A DNA stretch of 64,000 bases, taken from Pseudomonas sp. MUP55. Its GTDB lineage: Bacteria > Pseudomonadota > Gammaproteobacteria > Pseudomonadales > Pseudomonadaceae. The stretch is taken from the NCBI RefSeq assembly GCF_034043515.1, contig NZ_CP138214.1, positions 5,884,020 through 5,948,019 of the forward strand, written 5' to 3'. Of the stretch, positions 32,358-45,340 are shown piece by piece. Below the pieces are notes generated by a model, which searched no databases, had not been told where the DNA came from, and saw nothing but the letters and a program-made list of their open reading frames with translations. Position 1 is the stretch's first letter; the number at the start of each line of letters is the position of its first letter. The position numbers and the translations under genes were made by a program.

Positions 32358-33242
32358 ATGTTCGCTGGTTTCCAGAAACAACAGCGCCAGGTCAATGGCC
32401 TGAACATCAGCTACCGCATCGGTGGCACCGGTCCGGCGCTGTTGCTTTTGCACGGCCACCCTCAGACCCACGTCATCTGGCACAAGGTCGCCGAACGGTT
32501 GGCTGCTGAATTTACCGTGGTCGCCGCTGACTTGCGTGGCTATGGCGATAGCGGCAGGCCGGTTGCCGATGCGCAGCATTCAAATTATTCAAAGCGTGAG
32601 ATGGCGCTCGATAGTGTTGAGTTGATGAAGTCGCTGGGCTTTGAGCAGTTCAGCGTGCTTGCCCATGATCGCGGGGCGAGAGTGGCGCACCGCCTGGCCC
32701 TCGACCATCCCCGCGCGGTCAAGCAAATCGTGCTGCTGGATATCGCCCCTACCCTGTCGATGTATACACAAACGAACGAAGCCTTCGCCCGTGCCTACTG
32801 GCACTGGTTTTTCCTCATCCGGCCGGCGCCGTTGCCGGAGAGCCTTATCGAGGCCAACCCCGAGCTCTATCTGCGCAGTGTGATGGGCAGCCGCAGCGCT
32901 GGCCTGCAGCCCTTCACCGCAGAAGCATTCGGCGAGTACCTGCGATGCCTGCAACTGCCCGGCAGCGCACGGGGCATTTGCGAGGATTACCGCGCCTCGG
33001 CCGGTATCGATCTGGAACATGATCGCGTGGATATCAACGCCGGCAATCAGCTAACGCAGCCGCTGTTGGTGCTATGGGGCGCCGAAGGCACCGTGGGGCG
33101 CTGTTTCGATCCATTAACGGAATGGCAGCAGGTAGCGACTGATGTACGCGGCAAAGCCTTACCTTGCGGCCATTACATCGCTGAGCAAGTGCCAGAACTA
33201 TTGCTTGAAGAAGTGCTGAGCTTTTTCGCAAGACCGATGTAG
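32358..33242 (+). CDS. Alpha/beta hydrolase, haloacetate-dehalogenase-like
   Basis: The 294-residue enzyme shows the haloacetate/fluoroacetate dehalogenase layout: LLLHGHPQTHVIW (oxyanion region), DLRGYGDSGRP, the nucleophile Asp in LAHDRGARVAHRLALDHP (about 103-120) followed by Arg residues, and a late catalytic His in LPCGHYIAEQVPELL. Having an Asp nucleophile instead of Ser, within HDRGAR, separates this group from esterases. It may act on a haloacid or on another activated carboxylate. It precedes dctA by 87 bases on the same strand, so a link to uptake of small carboxylates is possible. Confidence 0.83.
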   Translation: MFAGFQKQQRQVNGLNISYRIGGTGPALLLLHGHPQTHVIWHKVAERLAAEFTVVAADLRGYGDSGRPVADAQHSNYSKREMALDSVELMKSLGFEQFSVLAHDRGARVAHRLALDHPRAVKQIVLLDIAPTLSMYTQTNEAFARAYWHWFFLIRPAPLPESLIEANPELYLRSVMGSRSAGLQPFTAEAFGEYLRCLQLPGSARGICEDYRASAGIDLEHDRVDINAGNQLTQPLLVLWGAEGTVGRCFDPLTEWQQVATDVRGKALPCGHYIAEQVPELLLEEVLSFFARPM

Positions 33243-33329
33243 CCAAGCCACTGGAAAAACCGCCTCGCAGGCACAGCCAGTGCCTTCGAGCGCTTTTGCT
33301 CGCCCGAAAAAAGCCTGGAGATAATAACA

Positions 33330-34634
33330 ATGACAATAAGAAAACTGCTGGGAACGCTCTATGTACAGGTGATTATCGCCATCGCCCTGGGCATTGCCGT
33401 TGGTCATTACTGGCCCCAGGTGGGGGTCGACCTCAAACCCCTGGGTGACGGTTTTATCAAACTCATCAAAATGATCATCGGCCCGATCATTTTTTGTACG
33501 GTGGTATCGGGTATCACCAGCATGCACGACGTCAAGCAGGTGGGTCGCGTCGGCGGCAAGGCGCTGCTGTATTTTGAGGTGGTGTCCACCGTAGCGTTGA
33601 TGATCGGGCTGCTCGCTGCGCATCTGATACGCCCTGGCGCGGGGTTCAATATCGATGTAAACAGCCTCGACAGCTCGGCGATTGCCGGCTTTGTGGGGCA
33701 GGCCGAACATGGCGAAGGCATTGTCGGCTTTTTACTTCATGTGATCCCTACGACCTTCTTCAACGCCTTTGCGCAGGGCGAAATACTGCCGGTACTGTTC
33801 GTTTCGATCCTCTTCGGTGTGGCGTTGGTCATTGTTGGCGAGAAAGCGCGTCCGCTGGTGAACGTGATTCACCAGGCCAGTGAGGTGTTCTTTCGTATTG
33901 TCGGCATGATCAGTCGCGTTGCGCCCATTGGTGCCTTCGGCGCTATTGCGTTCACCATCGGCAAATACGGGTTGGGCGCACTGCTGCCGCTGCTGAAACT
34001 GGTGGGCACTTTTTACATCGCAGGCCTGTTCTTTGTGGTGGTTGTACTGGGCAGCATCGCTCGCTGTGCCGGGGTAAATATCTTCAAGCTGCTGGGCTAC
34101 ATCAAGGCTGAACTACTGATCGTGCTGGGCACCAGTTCCTCGGAATCGGCGCTGCCGCAGATCATTCAGAAACTGGAAAGCCTGGGCGCTTCCAAGGGCG
34201 TCGTGGGCATCGTGGTGCCCACCGGGTATACGTTCAACCTGGACGGCACCAACATTTACATGACGCTCGCCGTGCTGTTTCTGGCTCAGGCCACCAACAC
34301 CGATTTGAGCCTGGAGCAGCAGCTCACCTTGTTGGCGGTGGCGATGCTGACGTCCAAAGGCGCAGGGGCGGTGGTCGGTGCGGGCTTCGTAGCGCTAGCT
34401 GCCAGCCTGGCCGTAGTGCCTACCGTGCCAGTGGCTGCCATGGTGCTGATTCTGGGCGTTGACCGCTTCATGGCTGAGTGCCGCTCACTGACCAACATCA
34501 TTGGCAACGCGGTAGCGGCGCTGGTGATCGCCGCTTGGGAAGGAGAACTGGACCGGCGCCTGCTCGCGCCAGTGGCGACAAAGCGCAGCGTGCCCGCTGC
34601 GCTGAATCAGCCGGAGCACGCCGCCGCCGACTAA
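33330..34634 (+). CDS. dctA: C4-dicarboxylate:cation symporter DctA
   Basis: The 434-residue inner-membrane symporter (DAACS family) takes up succinate, fumarate and malate with protons or Na+. It starts [29 protein letters not shown] and has family motifs in order: [17 protein letters not shown], the hairpin region [14 protein letters not shown] (about 270), [29 protein letters not shown], and the substrate-contacting [16 protein letters not shown] (about 375-391). GGAGATAAT lies before the ATG. The genome probably has other DctA copies, and this one lies beside a LysR regulator and a hydro-lyase pair. Confidence 0.9.
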
Positions 34635-34743
34635 GCGCATGAGTGGGCGCATGAATGGGCGCAACAACCGTCCTTCCAGGCGATGTTATCCTCGCGGCTC
34701 ACGCCGCCACGTAGCTCTTTTGATGATCTACAAGAAAGACTCC

Positions 34744-35637
34744 ATGCCCCTTCCCGAAGACCTGCGGGTGTTCCTGACCGTGATCCGCAAGGCCAGCTTT
34801 GCCGCGGCCGCCGATGAGCTTGGCTTGTCGGCGGCTTACGTCAGCAAGCGTATCCAGATCCTCGAAAATACCCTGGCGACACGTTTGCTGCACCGTACCA
34901 GCCGACGTGTCACGCTGACCGACGATGGCGAGCGGGTAAAGGACTGGGCGGCGCGCATTCTGGAGGACTTCCAGCATCTGGCCGATGAGTTGGTCGATGC
35001 CCATGACAGCCCCCGTGGCCGACTGCATATCTGCAGCAGCTTCGGCTTCGGCCGCAATCACGTGGCGCCTGCCCTGGCGTTGCTGGCTGATCGTTACCCC
35101 GAGCTGGAAATCCGCCTGGACCTGTTCGATCGGGTGGTGGATATCGTCAGCGAAGGGTTCGACCTGGAAATTCGTGTCGGCGACGACATCCCCGGCCAGC
35201 ACATCGGCCGTCAACTGGTCAGCAACCGCCGCATCTTGTGCGCCGCCCCCAGCTACCTGGAACGCCACGGGACACCCGCGCAGCTGAGTGACCTGGAGCA
35301 CCATGAATGCCTGGTCTTGAAGGAGCGCGACAACGCCTTCGGCGTCTGGGTATTGGAGCGCGACGGCAAGCAGGAGAGCGTGCGGGTGGGAGGGCCGTTG
35401 TCATCCAACAGCGGCGAGATCGTCTTGCAGTGGGCGTTGCACGGGCGGGGGGTGCTGCTGCGTTCGCTGTGGGATGCCAAACCGTTGCTCGAACAGGGCG
35501 AGCTGGTTCAGGTTCTGCATGACTATGGGCAAAGCGCCAACGTGTGGGCCGTCTACCCCACGCGTCTTGCTCACTCGGGAAAGCTGCGGGCCTGTGTCGA
35601 ATTTCTGCAGGCGCATTTTGCGGGGTTGTCGATTTGA
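34744..35637 (+). CDS. LysR-family regulator (DmlR-like)
   Basis: The 297-residue regulator has an N-terminal winged helix-turn-helix (about 3-60: LRVFLTVIRKASFAAAADELGLSAAYVSKRIQILENTL) and a periplasmic-binding-protein-like effector domain from about 90. The sequence resembles the DmlR/CrgA group; E. coli DmlR controls D-malate use. It is on the same strand as dctA, 109 bases downstream, and converges on the leuD-like gene. It likely controls dctA and the hydro-lyase genes in response to their substrate. The ATG at 34744 is used because it starts the HTH domain; the frame is open to 34639. Confidence 0.85.
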   Translation: MPLPEDLRVFLTVIRKASFAAAADELGLSAAYVSKRIQILENTLATRLLHRTSRRVTLTDDGERVKDWAARILEDFQHLADELVDAHDSPRGRLHICSSFGFGRNHVAPALALLADRYPELEIRLDLFDRVVDIVSEGFDLEIRVGDDIPGQHIGRQLVSNRRILCAAPSYLERHGTPAQLSDLEHHECLVLKERDNAFGVWVLERDGKQESVRVGGPLSSNSGEIVLQWALHGRGVLLRSLWDAKPLLEQGELVQVLHDYGQSANVWAVYPTRLAHSGKLRACVEFLQAHFAGLSI

Positions 35638-35646
35638 GCCAAGCAA

Positions 35647-35666
35647 GGCGCACAGGATTGTGCGCC
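35647..35666. terminator. Hairpin between convergent LysR and LeuD-like genes
   Basis: GGCGCACA-GGAT-TGTGCGCC, an 8-bp perfect stem with a 4-base loop. Read on the minus strand it is followed by TTGCTT, a weak U tract suited to ending the leuCD-like transcript. Confidence 0.55.
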
Positions 35667-35697
35667 AGCCAGCGCGGCTATCGGGACAGCCGTCTGG

Positions 35698-36312
35698 TCA
35701 CGACAGCCATGGGTTAGCGGCCAGATGGTCGCGCTCGAACTCTCGAATTTCATCGCTGCGCTGCAAGGTACTGCCAATGGCATCCAGGCCGAGTAACAGC
35801 GCGGTTTTGCGCAGGGTATCGATCTGGAAGGGAACCACTTCGCCGCCGTGCAGCACGATGGTTTGTTCGTTCAGGTCGATTGAAATCTCAGCCGTCTGTG
35901 GCTGCCCGACGATGTCGCCGATGCGCTGCACGGTGGCGGCTTCAAGGCTGATCAGCAGCACGCCGTTACGCTGGCAGTTGTCATAAAAAATACCGGCGAA
36001 GCTGCTGCCGATCAGCGCGCGCATGCCCCTTTGCTTGAGGCCCCAAACCGCATGCTCGCGACTGGAACCGCAGCCAAAGTTGGGGCCCACCACCAAAAAG
36101 CATGCGCTCTGCCAGGGGGGCATATTGAGCACAAAGGCAGGGTCTGGCTGCCCTGAGGGCAAAAAGCGCACGTCATGAAACAGCCCCTGTTCCAGGCCAT
36201 TGCGGTCAATGCCTTTGAGGAACTGCTTGGGCATGATCACGTCGGTGTCGATATTGGCCGCCAACATCGGCGCCGCTGGGCCGGTGACGTGGGTAAAGGA
36301 ATGGTTGCTCAT
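35698..36312 (-). CDS. LeuD-like small subunit of a second aconitase-family hydro-lyase
   Basis: The 204-residue small subunit carries the swivel domain: MLAANIDTDVIMPKQFLKGIDRNGL (about 16-40) and VVGPNFGCGSSREHAVWGLKQRGMRALIGSSFAGIFYDNCQRNG (about 75-118). It works with the LeuC-like subunit encoded upstream, and the genes overlap (ATGA). The homology is to 3-isopropylmalate dehydratase, but the neighbours are dctA and a DmlR-like regulator rather than leuB. The substrate may therefore be maleate, citraconate/methylmalate or a related diacid. The substrate cannot be told from sequence alone. Confidence 0.85.
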   Translation of the reverse strand: MSNHSFTHVTGPAAPMLAANIDTDVIMPKQFLKGIDRNGLEQGLFHDVRFLPSGQPDPAFVLNMPPWQSACFLVVGPNFGCGSSREHAVWGLKQRGMRALIGSSFAGIFYDNCQRNGVLLISLEAATVQRIGDIVGQPQTAEISIDLNEQTIVLHGGEVVPFQIDTLRKTALLLGLDAIGSTLQRSDEIREFERDHLAANPWLS

Positions 36313-37730
36313 ACGCGCTCCCCGATTTGCCGAACATCCGTCAGATGCCCGCTTATTGCAGCGGCTGCCACCATTGCCGGACTCATCAGGTGTGTACGGG
36401 CTCCGGCGCCCTGGCGGCCTTCGAAATTGCGGTTGGTGCTGGAGGCGCAACGGTCTCCCGGCGCGAGCACGTCGTCGTTCATGGCCAGGCACATGGAACA
36501 GCCCGATTGACGCCATTCGAACCCCGCGTTCCGAAAAATAGCGGCCAAGCCCTCAGCCTCGGCCTGATCGCGAACTTCGGTGGAGCCCGGCACGACCATC
36601 GCACGCACGTGCGGGGCGACGCGCCTGCCGCCGATTACGCGGGCGGCATCGCGCAGGTCTTCGATACGGGCGTTGGTGCACGAGCCGATGAACGCATGGC
36701 TGATCACCACTTCATTTAACGGCTCGCCCGCCTTGAGCCCCATGTAAGTCAGGGCACGTTGCATGTCCCGGCGCAGAATCAGGTCGCTGACCTGCAGCGG
36801 GTCTGGAACCCGCCCGTTAATGGCGACGACCTGATCAGGGCTCGTGCCCCATGTGACCATCGGCAGCAGCCTGCTGACGTCCAGCGTAACCTCATGATCG
36901 AACACGGCACCCTCGTCGCTGTGCAAGTTGCGCCACACGGCCACTGCTCGGCGCCATTGCTCGCCTTTGGGCGCGCGCGGCTTACCCTCGAGGTAGTCGA
37001 ACACCTTCTGGTCCGGCGCCATGAACGCGCCACGCGCGCCAGCTTCAACAGCCATGTTGCACATGGTCATGCGTGCCTCGACGCTCAGGGCATCAATGGT
37101 TGAACCGACAAATTCGATAGCGAAACCCGTGGCCCCGGAGGCGCCGATTTGGCCGATCAGGGCCATGATGACGTCCTTGGATGTCAGGCCCGGCGACAAC
37201 GCGCCCACGACCCTGACCCGCATGGTTCTCAGGCGTTTGTAGACCAGGGTTTGCGAGGCCAGCAGGTGCTCGATTTCCGACGTGCCGATGCCAAACCCGA
37301 AGGCACCGAGGGCGCCATACGTGGTGGTGTGACTGTCACCCGCCGCAATCACCATCCCCGGAAGGATGAACCCCTGTTCGGGCGCGATAACGTGCTCGAT
37401 ACCCTGACGCTTATCCAGGATATCCAACAGTTCGATACCGAAATCCTGGCAATTGCGCGACAGGTAGGAGACTTGCCGCGCGCCCCCCGCATCGGGCATC
37501 ACGGCGGTACGTTCAGGCGCGGTGGGGTTCACGTGATCAACGACCGCCAACGCCGTTCCAGGACGCCATACCGGGCGCCCGGCTTCACGCAGACCGCTGA
37601 ACGCCTGCGGGCTGGTGTATTCGTTGACGACCTGACGATCGATGTACAACAGGACATGGCCCTGCTCGTCCAGCGAGCAGACCGTGTGCGAATCGATGTG
37701 CTTTTGATAGAGGGTTTTGGGGCTGCTCAT
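36309..37730 (-). CDS. LeuC-like large subunit of a second aconitase-family hydro-lyase
   Basis: The 473-residue subunit binds a [4Fe-4S] cluster. Cluster cysteines are in SCTNARIEDL (about 350) and QSGCSMCLAMN (about 410-420), and typical motifs are DSHTVCSLDEQG near the start, DSHTTTYGALGAFGFGIGTSE (about 130) and GKPRAPKGEQW. Together with the small subunit it adds or removes water across a C=C bond of a dicarboxylate. Lying beside a C4-dicarboxylate symporter and DmlR-like regulator, it is more likely catabolic than leucine-biosynthetic. Confidence 0.87.
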   Translation of the reverse strand: MSSPKTLYQKHIDSHTVCSLDEQGHVLLYIDRQVVNEYTSPQAFSGLREAGRPVWRPGTALAVVDHVNPTAPERTAVMPDAGGARQVSYLSRNCQDFGIELLDILDKRQGIEHVIAPEQGFILPGMVIAAGDSHTTTYGALGAFGFGIGTSEIEHLLASQTLVYKRLRTMRVRVVGALSPGLTSKDVIMALIGQIGASGATGFAIEFVGSTIDALSVEARMTMCNMAVEAGARGAFMAPDQKVFDYLEGKPRAPKGEQWRRAVAVWRNLHSDEGAVFDHEVTLDVSRLLPMVTWGTSPDQVVAINGRVPDPLQVSDLILRRDMQRALTYMGLKAGEPLNEVVISHAFIGSCTNARIEDLRDAARVIGGRRVAPHVRAMVVPGSTEVRDQAEAEGLAAIFRNAGFEWRQSGCSMCLAMNDDVLAPGDRCASSTNRNFEGRQGAGARTHLMSPAMVAAAAISGHLTDVRQIGERV

Positions 37731-37870
37731 TAAGCGTTCTCACTCACGGGGACACCTTCGACAGGATAGGGACCGGGGAGTGGTCATCAAGAGCAGCTCT
37801 GGAATACATGGCTCTACAGTTCGTGTATCACCGACGGGCCGATGACGCGAACGGCAACCGGAGAAATGCC

Positions 37871-38005
37871 TCAGCGCTTCCATCGAAGATGGTTGAATCG
37901 TGAGTCGCTGAAGAGCCAGTCATCGTTGTTATAGCGATGTTGCCAAATGTCGCCGACGGCGTCTTTGTAGCGACCGGCCCCCTCCTTGTTTAGCTCTTTC
38001 AGGAT
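37871..38005 (-). pseudogene. Gene fossil: 44-codon C-terminal remnant
   Basis: On the minus strand an open stretch from an in-frame TAA (38006-38008) to a TGA (37871-37873) encodes ILKELNKEGAGRYKDAVGDI and then WQHRYNNDDWLFSDSRFNHLRWKR. The composition is protein-like (Trp and paired Asn/Asp) and there is no start codon, so it looks like the tail of a gene whose front is lost or frameshifted. I do not recognise the family. It lies upstream of the leuC-like gene in the same direction, at the edge of that accessory cluster. Confidence 0.45.
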
Positions 38006-38142
38006 TTAAGCAAAGTCTGAAACCGGTGCTCCTACCTCCACGTCCCTTTCTTTCGCAGGACATTTCCGAGAGAATCCCGAGCGCTTGTGTCCCGCTTTTG
38101 CGATGGTTAGTCTGCGTCCGTCACTACTAATTCAGTGACCGG

Positions 38143-38204
38143 GTTTAGCAGCTCGAACGTTAACATTGGGCGCACAAGCGCCATCACAAGCATGGCGTTT
38201 TTTT
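38143..38204 (+). terminator. Terminator with competing hairpin at the start of the DUF3077 leader
   Basis: CGCCAT (38179-38184) pairs with ATGGCG (38192-38197), followed by seven T. An alternative hairpin, GGCGC-ACAA-GCGCC (38169-38182), uses the same CGCC bases, so the two cannot form together. The segment begins with GTTTAGCAGC (38143-38152), repeated exactly at 38302-38311. Confidence 0.65.
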
Positions 38205-38219
38205 CTGCCAACGCTTTAT

Positions 38220-38297
38220 GGTGGCTGTGCGCAGGGCACCTTCGGGTGCGTCGGATTCCCAATGTTCCGGCCTGCTAACCTGCGTACAGCTGCCACC
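38220..38297 (+). ncRNA. Structured leader RNA element, three-way junction
   Basis: A closing stem of 16 pairs forms between 38220-38235 (GGTGGCTGTGCGCAGG) and 38279-38297 (CCTGCGTACAGCTGCCACC), with a 3-base bulge (38289-38291) and one G-U pair. Inside are a perfect hairpin GCACC-TTCG-GGTGC (38236-38249) with a UUCG tetraloop, and a second hairpin CGGA...TCCG (38252-38269). The single-stranded CTGCTAA (38272-38278) is complementary to the TTAGCAG of both flanking repeats. I recognise no named RNA family; similar sequences may occur upstream of other small Pseudomonas genes. Confidence 0.65.
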
Positions 38298-38323
38298 CAT
38301 TGTTTAGCAGCGATGTCTGGCAG

Positions 38324-38344
38324 CTCCAATTAATTACATTGGAG
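38324..38344 (+). promoter_or_regulatory. Shine-Dalgarno-masking hairpin before the DUF3077-like gene
   Basis: CTCCAAT (38324-38330) pairs perfectly with ATTGGAG (38338-38344) across a 7-base A/T loop. The second arm contains the GGAG ribosome-binding site, which lies 8 bases before the ATG at 38353. The hairpin would lower translation until opened by heat, a ligand, or pairing elsewhere. Confidence 0.65.
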
Positions 38345-38352
38345 TTACCATA

Positions 38353-38565
38353 ATGAGCAAAGTAAGGCCTGATCCACCGTACCCGTTTTTCATCACCCAT
38401 CCCGAACTCAGCTTCGAGGATGCCTTGGCCTACGCCTCCGATTTACTTCACTGCGCCGAGCAGTTACTCGATTCCCGGCAGGCAGCCGGTTATCTGGTTG
38501 AAATGGCCAAGGTGATGGTAGACCGCTCGCTGGACTGCATTGCTTCAGCAGACGTGAGCGCATAG
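38353..38565 (+). CDS. Small DUF3077-like protein
   Basis: The 70-residue helical protein reads MSKVRPDPPYPFFITHPELS then FEDALAYASDLLHCAEQL and ends in a second helix (YLVEMAKVMVDRSLDC). The pattern 'P-x-P-P ... F-x-V/T ... DAL-x-x-AS-x-LL-x-x-A' is that of the small DUF3077/DUF6124-like proteins, many copies of which occur in Pseudomonas genomes. Function unknown. Its long structured leader (38143-38352) suggests strong post-transcriptional control. No partner gene is in the same direction nearby; a REP pair follows at once. Confidence 0.72.
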   Translation: MSKVRPDPPYPFFITHPELSFEDALAYASDLLHCAEQLLDSRQAAGYLVEMAKVMVDRSLDCIASADVSA

Positions 38566-38569
38566 CGTC

Positions 38570-38661
38570 GTAGGAGCGCGCTTGCTGGCGAGGGACGTAA
38601 CGCGCAGAGATTGGTGCCAGGTGGCGTTCTCAGGTTTTTCGCGAGCAAGCTCGCTCCTACA
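38570..38661. repeat. REP doublet, GAGCGAGCTTGCTCGCG type, one arm diverged
   Basis: The right arm TTCGCGAGCAAGCTCGCTCCTACA (ending 38661) is canonical. The left arm TAGGAGCGCGCTTGCTGGCG has several changes. It lies directly after the DUF3077-like gene. Confidence 0.8.
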
Positions 38662-38699
38662 GTAAATTCGGTGCAGCCTAACCCTGAACTACGGGCTCT

Positions 38700-39059
38700 T
38701 TAAGCAGTGATCTCGACGTAGTTAGACGCTCCGCCTCCTGTCGTACCCGACAACCAGCCCCAAACAAAACTCAACGTCGTGCGCCCGGCGCCATCAACGC
38801 CAACCGTGCCACGTGACCAGCCAGCAAGCAGTTCTCCCTCTAGGGTCAGGCACTGGTACAGGAGCTCGAAGGTATCTGGGCCGGTCACTCGTCCGACTTG
38901 CGTGCCCAGGCAAATCCGGCCCCCCTGATAAGTGCTCGAAATCGCGTCATCTTCGACTCGGTAGTGAAATACGGTACCGGTGCCGGACAGCCCCTGAGCG
39001 TTGTCGGCGACCACAAACCGGCGATTGTGCAGACGTGCGTAGACACTAGGATTTTGCAT
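38700..39059 (-). CDS. Small cytosolic protein of the 'N-acetylglutamate synthase-like' hypothetical family
   Basis: The 119-residue beta-rich protein has RRFVVADNAQG, then TVFHYRVEDDAISSTYQGGRICLGTQVGRV, LLYQCLTLEGELLAGWSRG and a closing SFVWGW...YVEI. This order of strands (FHY-x-ED-x-I-x-x-x-Y-x-G-G-x-I, then Y-x-x-x-x-x-x-GEL) matches a widespread short family often labelled 'N-acetylglutamate synthase', a label with no proven basis for a protein this small. It is monocistronic and ends before a REP pair. Confidence 0.7.
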   Translation of the reverse strand: MQNPSVYARLHNRRFVVADNAQGLSGTGTVFHYRVEDDAISSTYQGGRICLGTQVGRVTGPDTFELLYQCLTLEGELLAGWSRGTVGVDGAGRTTLSFVWGWLSGTTGGGASNYVEITA

Positions 39060-39095
39060 CAGTCGGCATCCTTGAATTGAGCGAATTCAAAACGT

Positions 39096-39129
39096 AAAAA
39101 AAGGGGCTGTTGAAAACAGCCCCTTTTTG
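39096..39129. terminator. Rho-independent terminator of glmS
   Basis: AAAAAAAGGGGCTGTTGAAAACAGCCCCTTTTT: a 9-bp stem (39103-39111 with 39115-39123), loop GAA, and flanking A and T runs. It lies just after the glmS stop on the minus strand and between it and the small gene at 38700. Confidence 0.9.
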
Positions 39130-39145
39130 GGTGCGTCAGTAAGGC

Positions 39146-40978
39146 TTACTCCACCGTCACCGACTTCGCCAGGTTGCGCGGCTGGTCGACGTCGGTGCCT
39201 TTAAGCACGGCAACGTAGTACGACAGCAACTGCAGCGGAATGGTGTAGAGGATCGGCGACAGGGTGTCGTGGATGTGCGGCATGTTGATCACGTGAGTAC
39301 CTTCACCGTTGGTCATGCCGGCCTTTTCGTCGGCAAACACGATCAACTGGCCGCCCCGGGCGCGTACTTCCTGCAGGTTGGATTTGAGCTTTTCCAGCAG
39401 CTCGTTGTTCGGCGCCACGGTGACCACTGGCATGTCGTCATCCACCAGGGCCAACGGGCCGTGTTTCAGCTCGCCGGCCGGGTAGGCTTCGGCGTGGATG
39501 TACGAGATTTCCTTGAGTTTCAGCGAACCTTCCATTGCCACCGGGTACTGCGCGCCACGGCCAAGGAACAGGGTGTGGTTTTTGTCGGCAAACAGCTCGG
39601 CGACTTTTTCCACGGTGCTGTCCATGGCCAGGGCTTCACCCAGGCGGGTCGGCAGGCGGCGCAGCTCTTCCACCAGGGTGGCTTCGACGCCTTCGGCCAG
39701 GGTGCCGCGCACTTGGCCAAGGGACAAGGTCAGCAGCAACAGGCCGACAAGCTGGGTGGTGAAGGCTTTGGTCGAGGCTACACCGATTTCACGGCCGGCC
39801 TGGGTCAGCAGGGTCAGGTCGGACTCGCGCACCAGGGAGCTGATGCTCACGTTGCAGATCGCCAGGCTGCCGAGGAAGCCCAGCTCCTTGGCGTTACGCA
39901 AAGCAGCCAGGGTGTCGGCGGTTTCGCCGGACTGGGAGATGGTCACGAACAGGGTGTCGGGCTGCACCACCACCTTGCGGTAGCGGAATTCGCTGGCGAC
40001 TTCGACCTGGCACGGGATGCCGGCCAGTTCTTCCAGCCAGTAACGCGCAACCATGCCGGCGTGGTAGCTGGTGCCGCAGGCGACGATTTGCACGTTGCGC
40101 ACTTTAGCGAAGAGCTCGGCGGCTTGTGGGCCGAAGGCGTTGACCAACACCTGGTTCTGGCTCAGGCGACCTTCCAGGGTGCGCTGCACCACGGACGGCT
40201 GCTCGTGGATTTCCTTGAGCATGAAGTGGCGGAACTCGCCTTTGTCGGCGGCTTCGGCGCCGTCGCGGTATTGCACGGCTTCGCGCTCGACGGACTGACC
40301 GTTCACGTCCCAGATCTGTACGCTTTCACGGCGGATGTCGGCAATGTCGCCTTCTTCCAGGTACATGAAGCGGTCGGTGACCTGGCGCAGGGCGAGTTGG
40401 TCGGAGGCGAGGAAGTTTTCCCCCAGGCCAAGGCCGATCACCAACGGGCTGCCACTGCGCGCGGCAACCAGGCGGTCAGGTTGGCTGGCGCTGATCACAG
40501 CCAGACCGTAGGCACCGTGCAGTTCCTTGACCGTGGCTTTGAGGGCGGTGGTCAGGTCGCTATGGTCCTTGAGCTTGTGGTTGAGCAGGTGGGCGATGAC
40601 TTCGGTGTCGGTGTCCGAGGTGAATACATAACCCAGGCCCTTGAGTTGCTCACGCAGCACTTCGTGGTTTTCGATGATGCCGTTGTGCACCACCGCCAGG
40701 TCGCCCGAGAAATGCGGGTGAGCGTTACGCTCGCACGGTGCGCCATGGGTGGCCCAACGGGTGTGGGCGATGCCCAGGCGGCCAACCAGCGGCTCGCCGG
40801 CCAGGGCCTGGTCCAACTCGCTGACTTTGCCCGGACGACGCGTACGCTCCAGCTTGCCGGCGTTGGTGAAGACGGCCACACCGGCGCTGTCGTAGCCACG
40901 GTATTCCAGGCGCTTGAGGCCTTCGATCAGGATGGCGGTTACATTACGTTCGGCGACTGCGCCAACAATTCCACACAT
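39146..40978 (-). CDS. glmS: Glutamine-fructose-6-phosphate aminotransferase GlmS
   Basis: GlmS makes glucosamine-6-phosphate from fructose-6-phosphate and glutamine, the entry to UDP-GlcNAc, peptidoglycan and LPS. The 610-residue length is normal. Cys2 of [12 protein letters not shown] is the N-terminal nucleophile of the glutaminase domain. Two SIS domains bind the sugar ([14 protein letters not shown] and [13 protein letters not shown]), and the protein ends NLAKSVTVE. No glmS ribozyme is seen upstream; the 10-base gap to the DeoR-type gene makes co-transcription likely. Confidence 0.97.
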
Positions 40979-40988
40979 GGTATTTCTC

Positions 40989-41756
40989 CTAGATGATTGC
41001 CGCGCATATCAGCGTAATGCCGCGGGCTTGGATCTGGTCGCGGGCCTCGAGCGGCAGGCGATCATCGGTGATAAGGGTATGGACGCTGCTCCAAGGCAGT
41101 TCCAGGTTTGGAATCTTGCGGCCGATCTTGTCGGATTCGACCATCACTACCACTTCGCGGGCGACCTCGGCCATGACACGGCTCAGGCCCAACAACTCGT
41201 TGAAGGTGGTGGTACCGCGCTGCAAATCGATGCCGTCGGCGCCGATGAACAGTTGATCAAAGTCATAGGAACGCAGCACCTGCTCGGCGACCTGGCCCTG
41301 GAACGAATCCGAATGCGGGTCCCAGGTGCCGCCGGTCATCAGCAGCACCGGCTCATGCTCCAGTTCGCTCAGGGCACGGGCCACGTTCAGGGAATTGGTC
41401 ATGACCACCAGGCCGGGCTGGTGGCCCAGCTCAGGAATCATTGCGGCGGTGGTGCTGCCGCTGTCGATGATGATGCGCGCGTGCTCACGCAGGCGAACCA
41501 CGGCCGCACGGGCGATGGCGCGCTTGTAGGCCGAGACCGGTTGTGCCGCATCGCCCACCAGTTCCTGCGGCATGGTGATCGCGCCACCGTAGCGGCGCAG
41601 GAGCAAGCCGTTACTTTCGAGCGCGGCCAAGTCCTTGCGGATGGTGACTTCCGATGTTTCGAAACGCTTGGCCAGTTCGTCCACGCTGACTTCGCCCTGT
41701 TCATTGAGCAAGGTCAGGATGTTGTGGCGACGCTGAGGGGTATTTCGTTTCGACAT
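40989..41756 (-). CDS. DeoR-family transcriptional regulator next to glmS
   Basis: The 255-residue regulator has an N-terminal DeoR helix-turn-helix (about 5-60: [42 protein letters not shown]) and a C-terminal sugar-phosphate sensor domain ([26 protein letters not shown]). It lies between glmU and glmS in the same direction. A likely role is to tune amino-sugar synthesis in response to a phosphorylated hexosamine. The start at 41756 (MSKRNTPQ) fits the family; the frame extends 13 codons further. Confidence 0.87.
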
Positions 41757-41859
41757 GGTGACGGTAAGTTTCGTTTCGAAAGATAACGAAGGCAATCAAA
41801 ACCTATTGGCGAAAGATCGTCAAGCGGTACACCTCATTTTTTAAGCTGTACACAAACAA

Positions 41860-41952
41860 ATGTGGGAGGGGGCTTGCTCCCGATGGCGGAAGATCAGTCA
41901 ATTTTTACGTCGACTGGATCACCGCTATCAGGGGCAAGCCCCCTCCCACATT
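41860..41952. repeat. REP doublet, GTGGGAGGGGGCTTGCCCCC type
   Basis: TGTGGGAGGGGGCTTGCTCC from 41861 and the inverted copy GGGGCAAGCCCCCTCCCACA ending at 41950, in the spacer between the DeoR-type gene and glmU. Confidence 0.88.
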
Positions 41953-41984
41953 TGGATACCACGTTTTTTGAAACTGTGGATAAC

Positions 41985-43352
41985 TTAGGTCTTTTTGATT
42001 TTGACTGGGCGTTTCCAGCCGTCGATGTTGCGTTGGCGGGCGCGGGCGACGCCGAGTTGCAAGTTATCCACATCTTGGTTGATGGTAGAACCAGCAGCCG
42101 TGGTGGCGCCATCACCGACGTTCACTGGGGCAACCAGCGAATTATTGGAACCGATGAATACGTCTTCACCCAATACCGTCTTGTGCTTATTGGCACCATC
42201 GTAGTTACAGGTGATCGTGCCGGCGCCAATGTTGGTGCGAGCACCAATCACCGCATCGCCCAGGTAGGTGAGATGCCCAGCTTTGGCGCCTTCGCCCAGG
42301 CGAGCATTTTTCAGTTCCACGAAGTTACCTACATGGGCCTTGGCTTCTAGCACAGTGCCCGGACGCAGCCGCGCAAACGGACCCGCATCGCTGCCCCCGC
42401 CCATTACCGCGCCATCGATGTGACTGTTGGCCTTGACCACCACGCCTTTGCGCAGCGTGCTGTCCTTGATCACGCAATTGGGACCAATCACCACGTCGTC
42501 TTCGATGATTACTCGGCCTTCCAGGATCACGTTGATGTCGATCAGCACATCGCGGCCCACGGTCACCTCACCACGCACATCGAAACGCGCCGGGTCGCGC
42601 AAGGTCACGCCTTGGGCCATCAGGCGGCGGCCTTCACGCAGCTGATAGTGACGCTCCAGTTCGGCCAGTTGCTTACGGTCGTTGGCGCCCTGCACTTCCA
42701 TCGGGTCGTGGGGCTGTTCAGTGGCAACCACGAGGCCGTCACTGACCGCCATCTCGATGACATCAGTGAGGTAGTACTCGCCTTGGGCGTTGTTGTTGGA
42801 CAGGCGGCTCATCCAGTCGGCCAGGCGATCGGCAGGCACCGCGAGGATACCGGTGTTGCCTTCGGTGATGGCGCGCTGGGCTTCGCTGGCGTCCTTGTGC
42901 TCGACGATAGCCGCTACCTTGCCCTCGGCGTCACGCACGATGCGCCCGTAGCCGGTGGGGTCGTCCAGCTCGACGGTGAGCAGGCCCATCTGGTCAGGCA
43001 CCACGTGCTTGAGCAGGCGTTGCAGGGTTTCCACTTCGATCAGAGGCACGTCGCCGTAAAGGATCAGCACGGTGTCAGCGGTAATGAACGGCACCGCTTG
43101 GGCAGTGGCGTGGCCGGTGCCCAGTTGCTTGTCCTGCAAGACGAAATTCAAGTCGTCTGCGGCCAGACGCTCGCGTACCACATCGGCACCGTGCCCGATG
43201 ACGACGTGAATGCGCTGTGGGTCCAACTGCCGGGCACTGTGGATAACATGACCCAGCATGGAATTGCCTGCGACCGGGTGCAGCACCTTGGGCAGGGCTG
43301 AGCGCATGCGGGTGCCCTGGCCTGCGGCGAGAATTACGATTTCAAGAGACAT
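41985..43352 (-). CDS. glmU: Bifunctional GlmU: GlcNAc-1-P uridyltransferase / glucosamine-1-P acetyltransferase
   Basis: GlmU makes UDP-GlcNAc in two steps: acetylation of GlcN-1-P by the C-terminal domain, then uridylylation by the N-terminal one. The 455 residues start [18 protein letters not shown] with the nucleotidyltransferase loop. The second half is a left-handed beta-helix (from about 250: [25 protein letters not shown]) with the acetyltransferase site near [19 protein letters not shown]. It is separated from the atp operon by a shared terminator and from the DeoR-type gene by a REP pair. Confidence 0.96.
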
Positions 43353-43412
43353 GAATGGCTACCAATCCTGGGCGGTCCGACTTCAGACCAAAGAAGTGTT
43401 TTGCAAAAAAAG

Positions 43413-43440
43413 AAAAAGGGTAGCCGAGGCTACCCTTTTT
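43413..43440. terminator. Terminator of the atp operon
   Basis: AAAAAGGGTAGCC-GA-GGCTACCCTTTTT: a long stem with A and T flanks, 36 bases after the atpC stop on the minus strand. Confidence 0.9.
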
Positions 43441-43475
43441 AATCAATCACGCGTGAAGCGCAACGGCCAGGCCGC

Positions 43476-43892
43476 TTACTTCTTGCGGATCTGCTGGAGC
43501 GTCCGCAGCTGGGCTGCGGCTTCGGCCAGACGGACTGCAGCAGCGCTGTAGTCGAAGTCTGCGCCTTTTTCGTTCAGCGCCTTCTCGGCAGCCTTTACGG
43601 CTTCCTGAGCGGAGGCTTCATCCAGGTCGCCAGCACGTTGCACGGTGTCGGCAAGTACCTTGACCATGTTCGGCTGAACCTCGAGGAAACCACCGGAGAT
43701 GTAAAACACCTCCTTTTCCCCGCCTTGCTTGGTCAGAGTGATCGGACCTGGCTTCAAGCTGGTGATCAACGGCGCGTGGCCCATGGCAATACCCAGGTCA
43801 CCGAGTTCGCCGTGTGCAATCACCATTTCTACCAGACCGGAGAAGATTTCCCCTTCCGCGCTGACGATATCGCAATGGACTGTCATAGCCAT
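43476..43892 (-). CDS. atpC: ATP synthase epsilon subunit AtpC
   Basis: The 138-residue F1 subunit has an N-terminal beta-sandwich ([32 protein letters not shown]) and a C-terminal helical hairpin ([19 protein letters not shown] and [22 protein letters not shown]). It links rotor to catalytic ring and inhibits ATP hydrolysis. It is the last gene of the operon; a hairpin lies in the 44-base gap from atpD. Confidence 0.96.
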
Positions 43893-43913
43893 CTGATTGC
43901 CTCAACCTGATGA

Positions 43914-43931
43914 GCGCCCGTTTCCGGGCGC
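43914..43931 (-). other. Intercistronic hairpin atpD-atpC
   Basis: GCGCCCG (43914-43920) and CGGGCGC (43925-43931) around a 4-base loop. On the transcribed strand the loop is GAAA, a GNRA tetraloop. No U tract follows, so it is not a terminator. Confidence 0.65.
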
Positions 43932-43936
43932 CAGGA

Positions 43937-45340
<1,404 letters not shown>

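Follow-up and report, generated by a model that had tools for sequence, protein, structure and literature searches.

The leader of a 70-codon DUF3077 gene in Pseudomonas sp. MUP55 was found to carry an antisense RNA of the C4 family at positions 38214-38300 of the window (the whole 64,000-nucleotide stretch analysed here), and 20 C4 copies above the cut-off were found in the same genome. The a' and b' segments of the window RNA are complementary to two target sites, a1/b1 before it and a2/b2 behind it. We put the probability at roughly 85% that this is a C4 antisense RNA which is likely excised from the leader to pair with a2/b2 across the Shine-Dalgarno sequence, leaving the DUF3077 gene untranslated. 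Four points come from the sequence and from comparison: how the RNA folds, which segments are complementary, that b2 overlaps the Shine-Dalgarno sequence, and that copies match their own targets. Taken singly, the RNA is an ordinary C4; its many copies and their matched keys are the points of interest.

The family assignment came from Rfam. RF01695 matched 38214-38300 with 79.3 bits, far above its cut-off of 45, and this was the sole Rfam match above cut-off in the 64-kb window. Because the RNA belongs to an established family, the claim of the initial annotation that the element fits no named family and is undescribed fails. In the 5' part of the leader, a search at a lax threshold gave 44.6 bits for c4-a1b1 (RF03163), below the cut-off of 46.7; genome-wide, five matches to this model reached the cut-off, and 19 of the 20 C4 units of this genome have some match (E up to 1). 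The C4 fold is supported by covariation among the same 20 copies, in which standard pairs make up 99.6% of the cells at C4 stem pairs. The compensatory changes that the initial annotation had proposed to look for were found across the three-stem fold, with two-sided changes in 10 of the 27 stem pairs and none of 500 shuffles as good.

All features of the window unit lie on the forward (+) strand. The 210-base leader (38143-38352) folds at -89 kcal/mol, compared with a mean of -64.9 kcal/mol for 200 dinucleotide shuffles, all of which it beats (z -5.4). A c4-a1b1-like region with two small hairpins (38107-38159) contains a1 (GTTTAGCAGC, 38143-38152) and is followed by b1 (AACATTGGG, 38162-38170), the exact 9-nt complement of b'. 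Behind these sites lie an alternative hairpin (GGCGCACAAGCGCC, 38169-38182) and the terminator that it overlaps (38176-38204, with the hairpin at 38176-38200 and a 7-T tract at 38198-38204). The C4 RNA itself consists of a closing stem, a TTCG hairpin and a second hairpin that presents b' (CCCAATGTT, 38258-38266) in its loop, and a' (CTGCTAA, 38272-38278) lies in the junction. Downstream, a2 (GTTTAGCAGC, 38302-38311) is, like a1, complementary to a', and b2 (38336-38344) includes ACATTGG (38336-38342), 7 nt complementary to b'. The b2 site overlaps the Shine-Dalgarno sequence GGAG (38341-38344) of the DUF3077 gene (38353-38565), and it is also the 3' arm of a hairpin covering that sequence (pairing probability 1.0 in the local fold).

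Several of these parts had been noticed before. The terminator with its 7-T tract and overlapping alternative hairpin is present, as is the exact 10-base direct repeat formed by a1 and a2; the junction segment described as complementary to both repeats is the a' of the C4, and the repeats are its targets. The three-way junction with its TTCG hairpin and second hairpin was likewise recovered, with the correction that the closing stem, counted earlier as 16 pairs, has 17 in the RNAfold and Rfam models. The earlier reading overlooked b1, b' and b2, the overlap of b2 with the Shine-Dalgarno sequence, and the c4-a1b1-like region that starts upstream at 38107. Near the 5' end of the C4, GGT at 38220-38222 resembles the GGW motif given in PMC5320573. 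The window terminator taken alone is not above chance (1 found against 0.8 expected in a consensus scan), but an alignment showed it to be kept in the four relatives with C4 at one other site (L174-L177).

Upstream of the leader, a genome pattern search marked a conserved 21-base element (GGACATTTCCGAGAGAATCCC, 38058-38078), possibly an operator or part of a promoter. With up to three mismatches allowed, the pattern GGACRTTTCCGAGANAATCCC has seven matches genome-wide, and each of them, including the one in the window, precedes a C4 unit; read backwards, it has no match in the genome. Since the pattern was drawn by eye at C4 units, its presence there is not independent, and its absence elsewhere is. 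On sequence grounds it is a fair guess that a common regulator may serve these 7 of the 20 units through this element. A putative promoter (TTGTGT-16-TTAGTC, 38085-38112), picked by eye from the aligned copies of this genome, would drive the leader; a consensus scan found no promoter at 38085-38112.

The matching of C4 to target was then quantified over the 20 copies of this genome. Every copy has an a' match to a2 of 6-8 nt and a b' match of 7-13 nt to the Shine-Dalgarno region ahead of the start codon, with G-U pairs allowed. Duplexes of a' and b' with the copy's own a2 and b2 had a mean of -24.2 kcal/mol, compared with -14.9 kcal/mol after the targets were re-dealt (z -12.6), and none of 100,000 permutations reached the strength of the own pairing. 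The own target ranked first for 18 of the 20 C4s, and from the other side 17 of the 20 targets had their own C4 in first place; when a' or b' was used alone, the own target still ranked first in 15 of 20 copies each. The a1/b1 side was weaker (z -8.2, own target first in 10 of 20). The window C4 pairs best with its own target (-19.0, with the runner-up at -16.7) but ranks second from the target's side. All b' loops share anti-Shine-Dalgarno letters, which were retained in the permutations and therefore cannot explain the keyed pairing. Two other Pseudomonas genomes behaved similarly: for the 14 best listed of 55 copies in G049 the z score was -9.2 and the own target came first in all 14, and for the 18 best listed of 37 copies in G119 it was -10.3 and the own target came first in 15, a' alone hardly discriminating in G119 (own target first in 4 of 18). 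Since each copy is complementary to its own downstream leader, the 20 copies likely work as separately keyed switches, and would do so with little cross-talk. In one locus (L014:6109-6976), two C4 units stand in tandem about 780 bp apart with near-identical proteins, the same a' and different b' loops.

The RNA is common in the genus. C4 was above the cut-off in 137 of 149 same-genus genomes, in a search that scored up to 27 candidates per genome and thus gave copy counts of the form "at least". A fuller search of 14 same-genus genomes, picked because they had reached this limit of 27, yielded 28 to 55 C4 matches each. In a sample of 115 genomes from the order, C4 was present in 14 apart from the present one, at 1 to 6 copies each. 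For comparison of the units, we assembled 149 loci, consisting of the 20 of this genome and 129 from the top of the ranked lists; a second copy of the window locus (L061), three antistrand matches and five duplicates were left out. In this set a' is an exact 7-nt match to a2 in 145 loci, compared with 27 of 2980 cross-pairs, and to a1 in 142 loci, and the helix of b' with b2 reaches at least 8 nt in 131 loci, compared with 457 of 2980 cross-pairs. The set holds 26 different a cores and 88 different b loops, which vary together with their targets.

By analogy with phages P1 and P7 as described in PMC5320573 and PMC12197685, we infer that the main step is translational repression by the released C4, with attenuation and relief by a short RNA as extra steps in part of the copies. 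RNase P cleavage at the GGT at 38220 would release the C4, which would then pair with a2/b2 in the cell and block translation of the DUF3077 gene. A stop of transcription at 38204 may yield a short IsrK-like a1/b1 RNA that soaks up C4 and so relieves repression, and C4 bound to b1 may favour the terminator in many copies, by prediction not in the window copy. Translational repression is taken as the main step because the predicted effect on the terminator is mixed and the window leader is unaffected. Against this reading stand the relatives and the two DUF genes of this genome without C4, the middling fit of the window copy, the weaker a1/b1 side, the poor discrimination by a' alone in G119, the unchanged prediction for the window terminator and the frame problems in 3 of the 20 copies. 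Moreover, a local hairpin takes in the Shine-Dalgarno sequence in most of 126 loci (mean pairing 0.89, compared with 0.57 when the upstream part was shuffled; in this genome the copies at 3889401, 5205005 and 546352 are exceptions). The b' segment would therefore meet b2 in or beside a hairpin, and since the Shine-Dalgarno sequence is already covered, C4 may add little.

The initial annotation had offered a riboswitch, an attenuator or an independent small RNA. Of these, the small RNA or the attenuator, with pairings that exclude one another, agrees with the findings, because C4 is an antisense RNA cut from leaders and b1 adjoins the terminator; the riboswitch part found no support. The order of the two steps could nonetheless be the reverse of ours, such that C4 on b1 mainly drives termination at 38204, in the manner of the phage P4 CI RNA, with translational control secondary. 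For 88 non-identical leaders that have a T tract, blocking a1 and b1 raised the predicted pairing of the terminator arm from 0.56 to 0.74, compared with 0.51 for random blocks (Wilcoxon p 1e-10, overstated since the loci are related). However, the predicted window terminator is unchanged by b1 binding (0.99 and 0.99), the terminator is weakened by prediction in 12 of 89 leaders, a T tract of at least 5 between a1 and C4 is missing in 53 of the 148 loci with a located a1, and a T tract was seen by eye in only 7 of the 20 copies of this genome, so we regard termination as an unlikely primary step. A little less probable again is a scheme in which the long transcript silences itself and is opened in trans by the short a1/b1 RNA that termination yields, C4 being structural only. 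The Gifsy-1 isrK locus of a Salmonella prophage works by such activation according to PMC4825925, and the leader resembles it in having a hairpin, a terminator and, by prediction, read-through into a small ORF controlled by RNA pairing; the hairpin over the Shine-Dalgarno sequence points the same way. The isrK model (RF01394) aligned at 38120-38205 with an E value of 5.5e-7, yet its 39.7 bits fall under the cut-off of 50, the downstream protein differs from that described there, and many copies are without the terminator needed to make a short RNA.

That the units are decaying remnants of phage immunity with no present role appears improbable: C4 losses in relatives and the frame problems in three copies are what such decay might leave, but the concerted changes of a1, a' and a2, the keyed pairing in three genomes and the purifying selection on the gene argue otherwise. 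A riboswitch sensing a metabolite is the least credible of the alternatives. The leader is indeed long and structured and has alternative pairings; the match, however, is to an antisense RNA family, and the parts expected to be single-stranded vary with their targets across the 149 loci, unlike a fixed ligand pocket. This co-variation of the unpaired parts removed the riboswitch as a leading idea.

We next examined the genes behind the C4 units. The 70-codon window gene matched DUF3077 (PF11275) with 28.4 bits, above the cut-off of 21, and with 24 bits over the stretch that the genome search evaluated. Purifying selection acts on the gene, as judged from dN/dS values of 0.04-0.27 (19 of 21 pairs of relatives computable), synonymous sites being near saturation in pairs that include the window gene. 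AlphaFold modelled the 70-aa protein as a two-helix hairpin (mean pLDDT 73, pTM 0.55), and comparison of the model with the PDB gave no match at E 0.001 or better. Pfam annotates DUF3077 and DUF6124 as of unknown function only. In this genome, a DUF3077 or DUF6124 gene above the Pfam cut-off follows in 15 of the 20 units, at a distance of about 500 nt in one of them, and one just under it follows in two, and the remaining three are followed by genes with neither; two further DUF genes have no C4. Three units (C4 at 4846991, 5057767 and 5483476) have a start codon after b2 that does not lead in frame into the expected gene. Among the 149 loci, sorted by seeds chosen in this analysis and not by Pfam, the first downstream gene was DUF3077/DUF6124-like in 86, of a 52-aa MHALN type in 32, MNRYMP in 10, Bro-N in 9 and MTTQYP in 1, with other or no genes in 11. 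Phage antirepressors commonly carry Bro-N. A first gene that looks like Bro-N was seen in the same-genus C4 units L051, L054, L042 (41.2 bits), L144, L044, L047 and L127, and Bro-N also stands behind the C4 of phage PAJU2.

The left neighbour of the window unit is an aconitase-family gene. Beside 18 of the 20 units of this genome lie 30 large ORFs, 21 of them with Pfam matches, mostly metabolic, transport or regulatory; the neighbours being mostly non-phage genes, most units look chromosomal. One unit alone (L012; C4 at 854321, or 6022-6108 in L012) stands beside a phage-type primase, and in it a 52-aa ORF precedes DUF3077, which lies about 500 nt downstream. Others lie near a transposase-like integrase, a restriction enzyme or a toxin-44 domain. 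Nine phage records match the leader at 60-80% identity, and a tblastn search of the 70-aa protein against phage records found none. In the P. fluorescens phage record DVM-2008 (L188:2501-2984), C4 is followed by a DUF6124 gene, beside prtR.

In phages P1 and P7, the parts stand in the order a1b1-C4-a2b2-gene. The C4 antisense RNA is known from these phages (PMC5320573, PMC12197685), and the units here share its fold, its a' and b' segments, that order and the position of b2 at the ribosome-binding site; they differ in that the gene is DUF3077 and not an antirepressor, that they are chromosomal, and that many copies occur, each keyed to its own gene. The nearest array is in Acinetobacter baumannii AB5075, whose genome encodes 21 C4-like RNAs, the group 1 sRNAs, that differ in their a' regions and for which RNA-seq suggests processing at a GGW motif (PMC5320573); the parts of that paper drawn on here name no cis target per copy, whereas 20 of 20 copies here have a matched target just downstream. 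The phage P4 CI RNA with seqA and seqC is another RNA, but as discussed in PMC4825925 it has a similar plan: it is antisense, is excised from a leader in which target sites flank it, and acts on termination. A report of a C4 array in Pseudomonas was not found among the portions of the open-licence literature consulted.

Alignment with relatives indicated how the units change. The alignment of the window unit with L174-L177 spans about 37997-38540, and from the rest of window positions 33000-44000 only a short repeat near 41.9 kb aligns; the alignment being limited to the unit, the unit occupies a different site there. The flanks of L174-L177 are shared among themselves at 89-96%, as at an orthologous site. 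At that site a1, a' and a2 read TTTAGCAG in L174 and L175 and TTTAGTCG in L176 and L177, so that three sites differ in concert. Twelve of the gene's 19 named relatives carry C4, four are without it and still have the gene start and the a1/b1 part, and three are without the gene start as well. The initial annotation had reckoned leaders that keep the gene and lose the pairings as evidence against it; the gene is indeed kept without C4 in those 4 of 19, where the entire RNA is absent rather than its pairings being eroded inside a kept RNA. L181 and L182 are without the equivalent of 38170-38340 (terminator, C4 and a2) and retain the promoter region, a1, b1, the Shine-Dalgarno GGAG and the gene, with a b2 that no longer fits b'. 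In L066 and L178 the leader is gone together with the first codons of the gene.

Collectively, it seems an even bet that Pseudomonas took over a phage immunity RNA and built from it arrays of up to 55 mutually indifferent C4 switches, each addressed through two segments (7-nt a, about 8-nt b) to a single small-protein gene, mostly DUF3077 or DUF6124, in units of about 540 bp that move as cassettes, swap addresses in threes and occasionally drop C4, freeing the gene. If so, the arrays would keep renewing a stock of RNA switches, insulated from one another, for a small-protein family, and they would attach a named mechanism, as predicted here, to the expression of DUF3077 and DUF6124. Tens of paralogous, copy-matched antisense switches per chromosome would further make a natural test of how cross-talk is avoided, and a ready source of keyed translational switches for Pseudomonas.

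Natural C4-less alleles with a1, b1, the Shine-Dalgarno sequence and the gene are available in L181:5800-6170, L182, L191, L194, L198 and L199, of which L182 and L191 are probably the same strain. Recombination between b1 and b2 was considered as the cause of C4 loss and rejected, as the junctions do not fit exactly. A short stretch of the window (41854-41957), which looks like a REP-type repeat, has similar copies beside the units of relatives. An orphan a1b1 site (L091; G000:C1:2749036-2749084, minus strand) immediately precedes an MNRYMP-type small gene, and no C4 separates the two.
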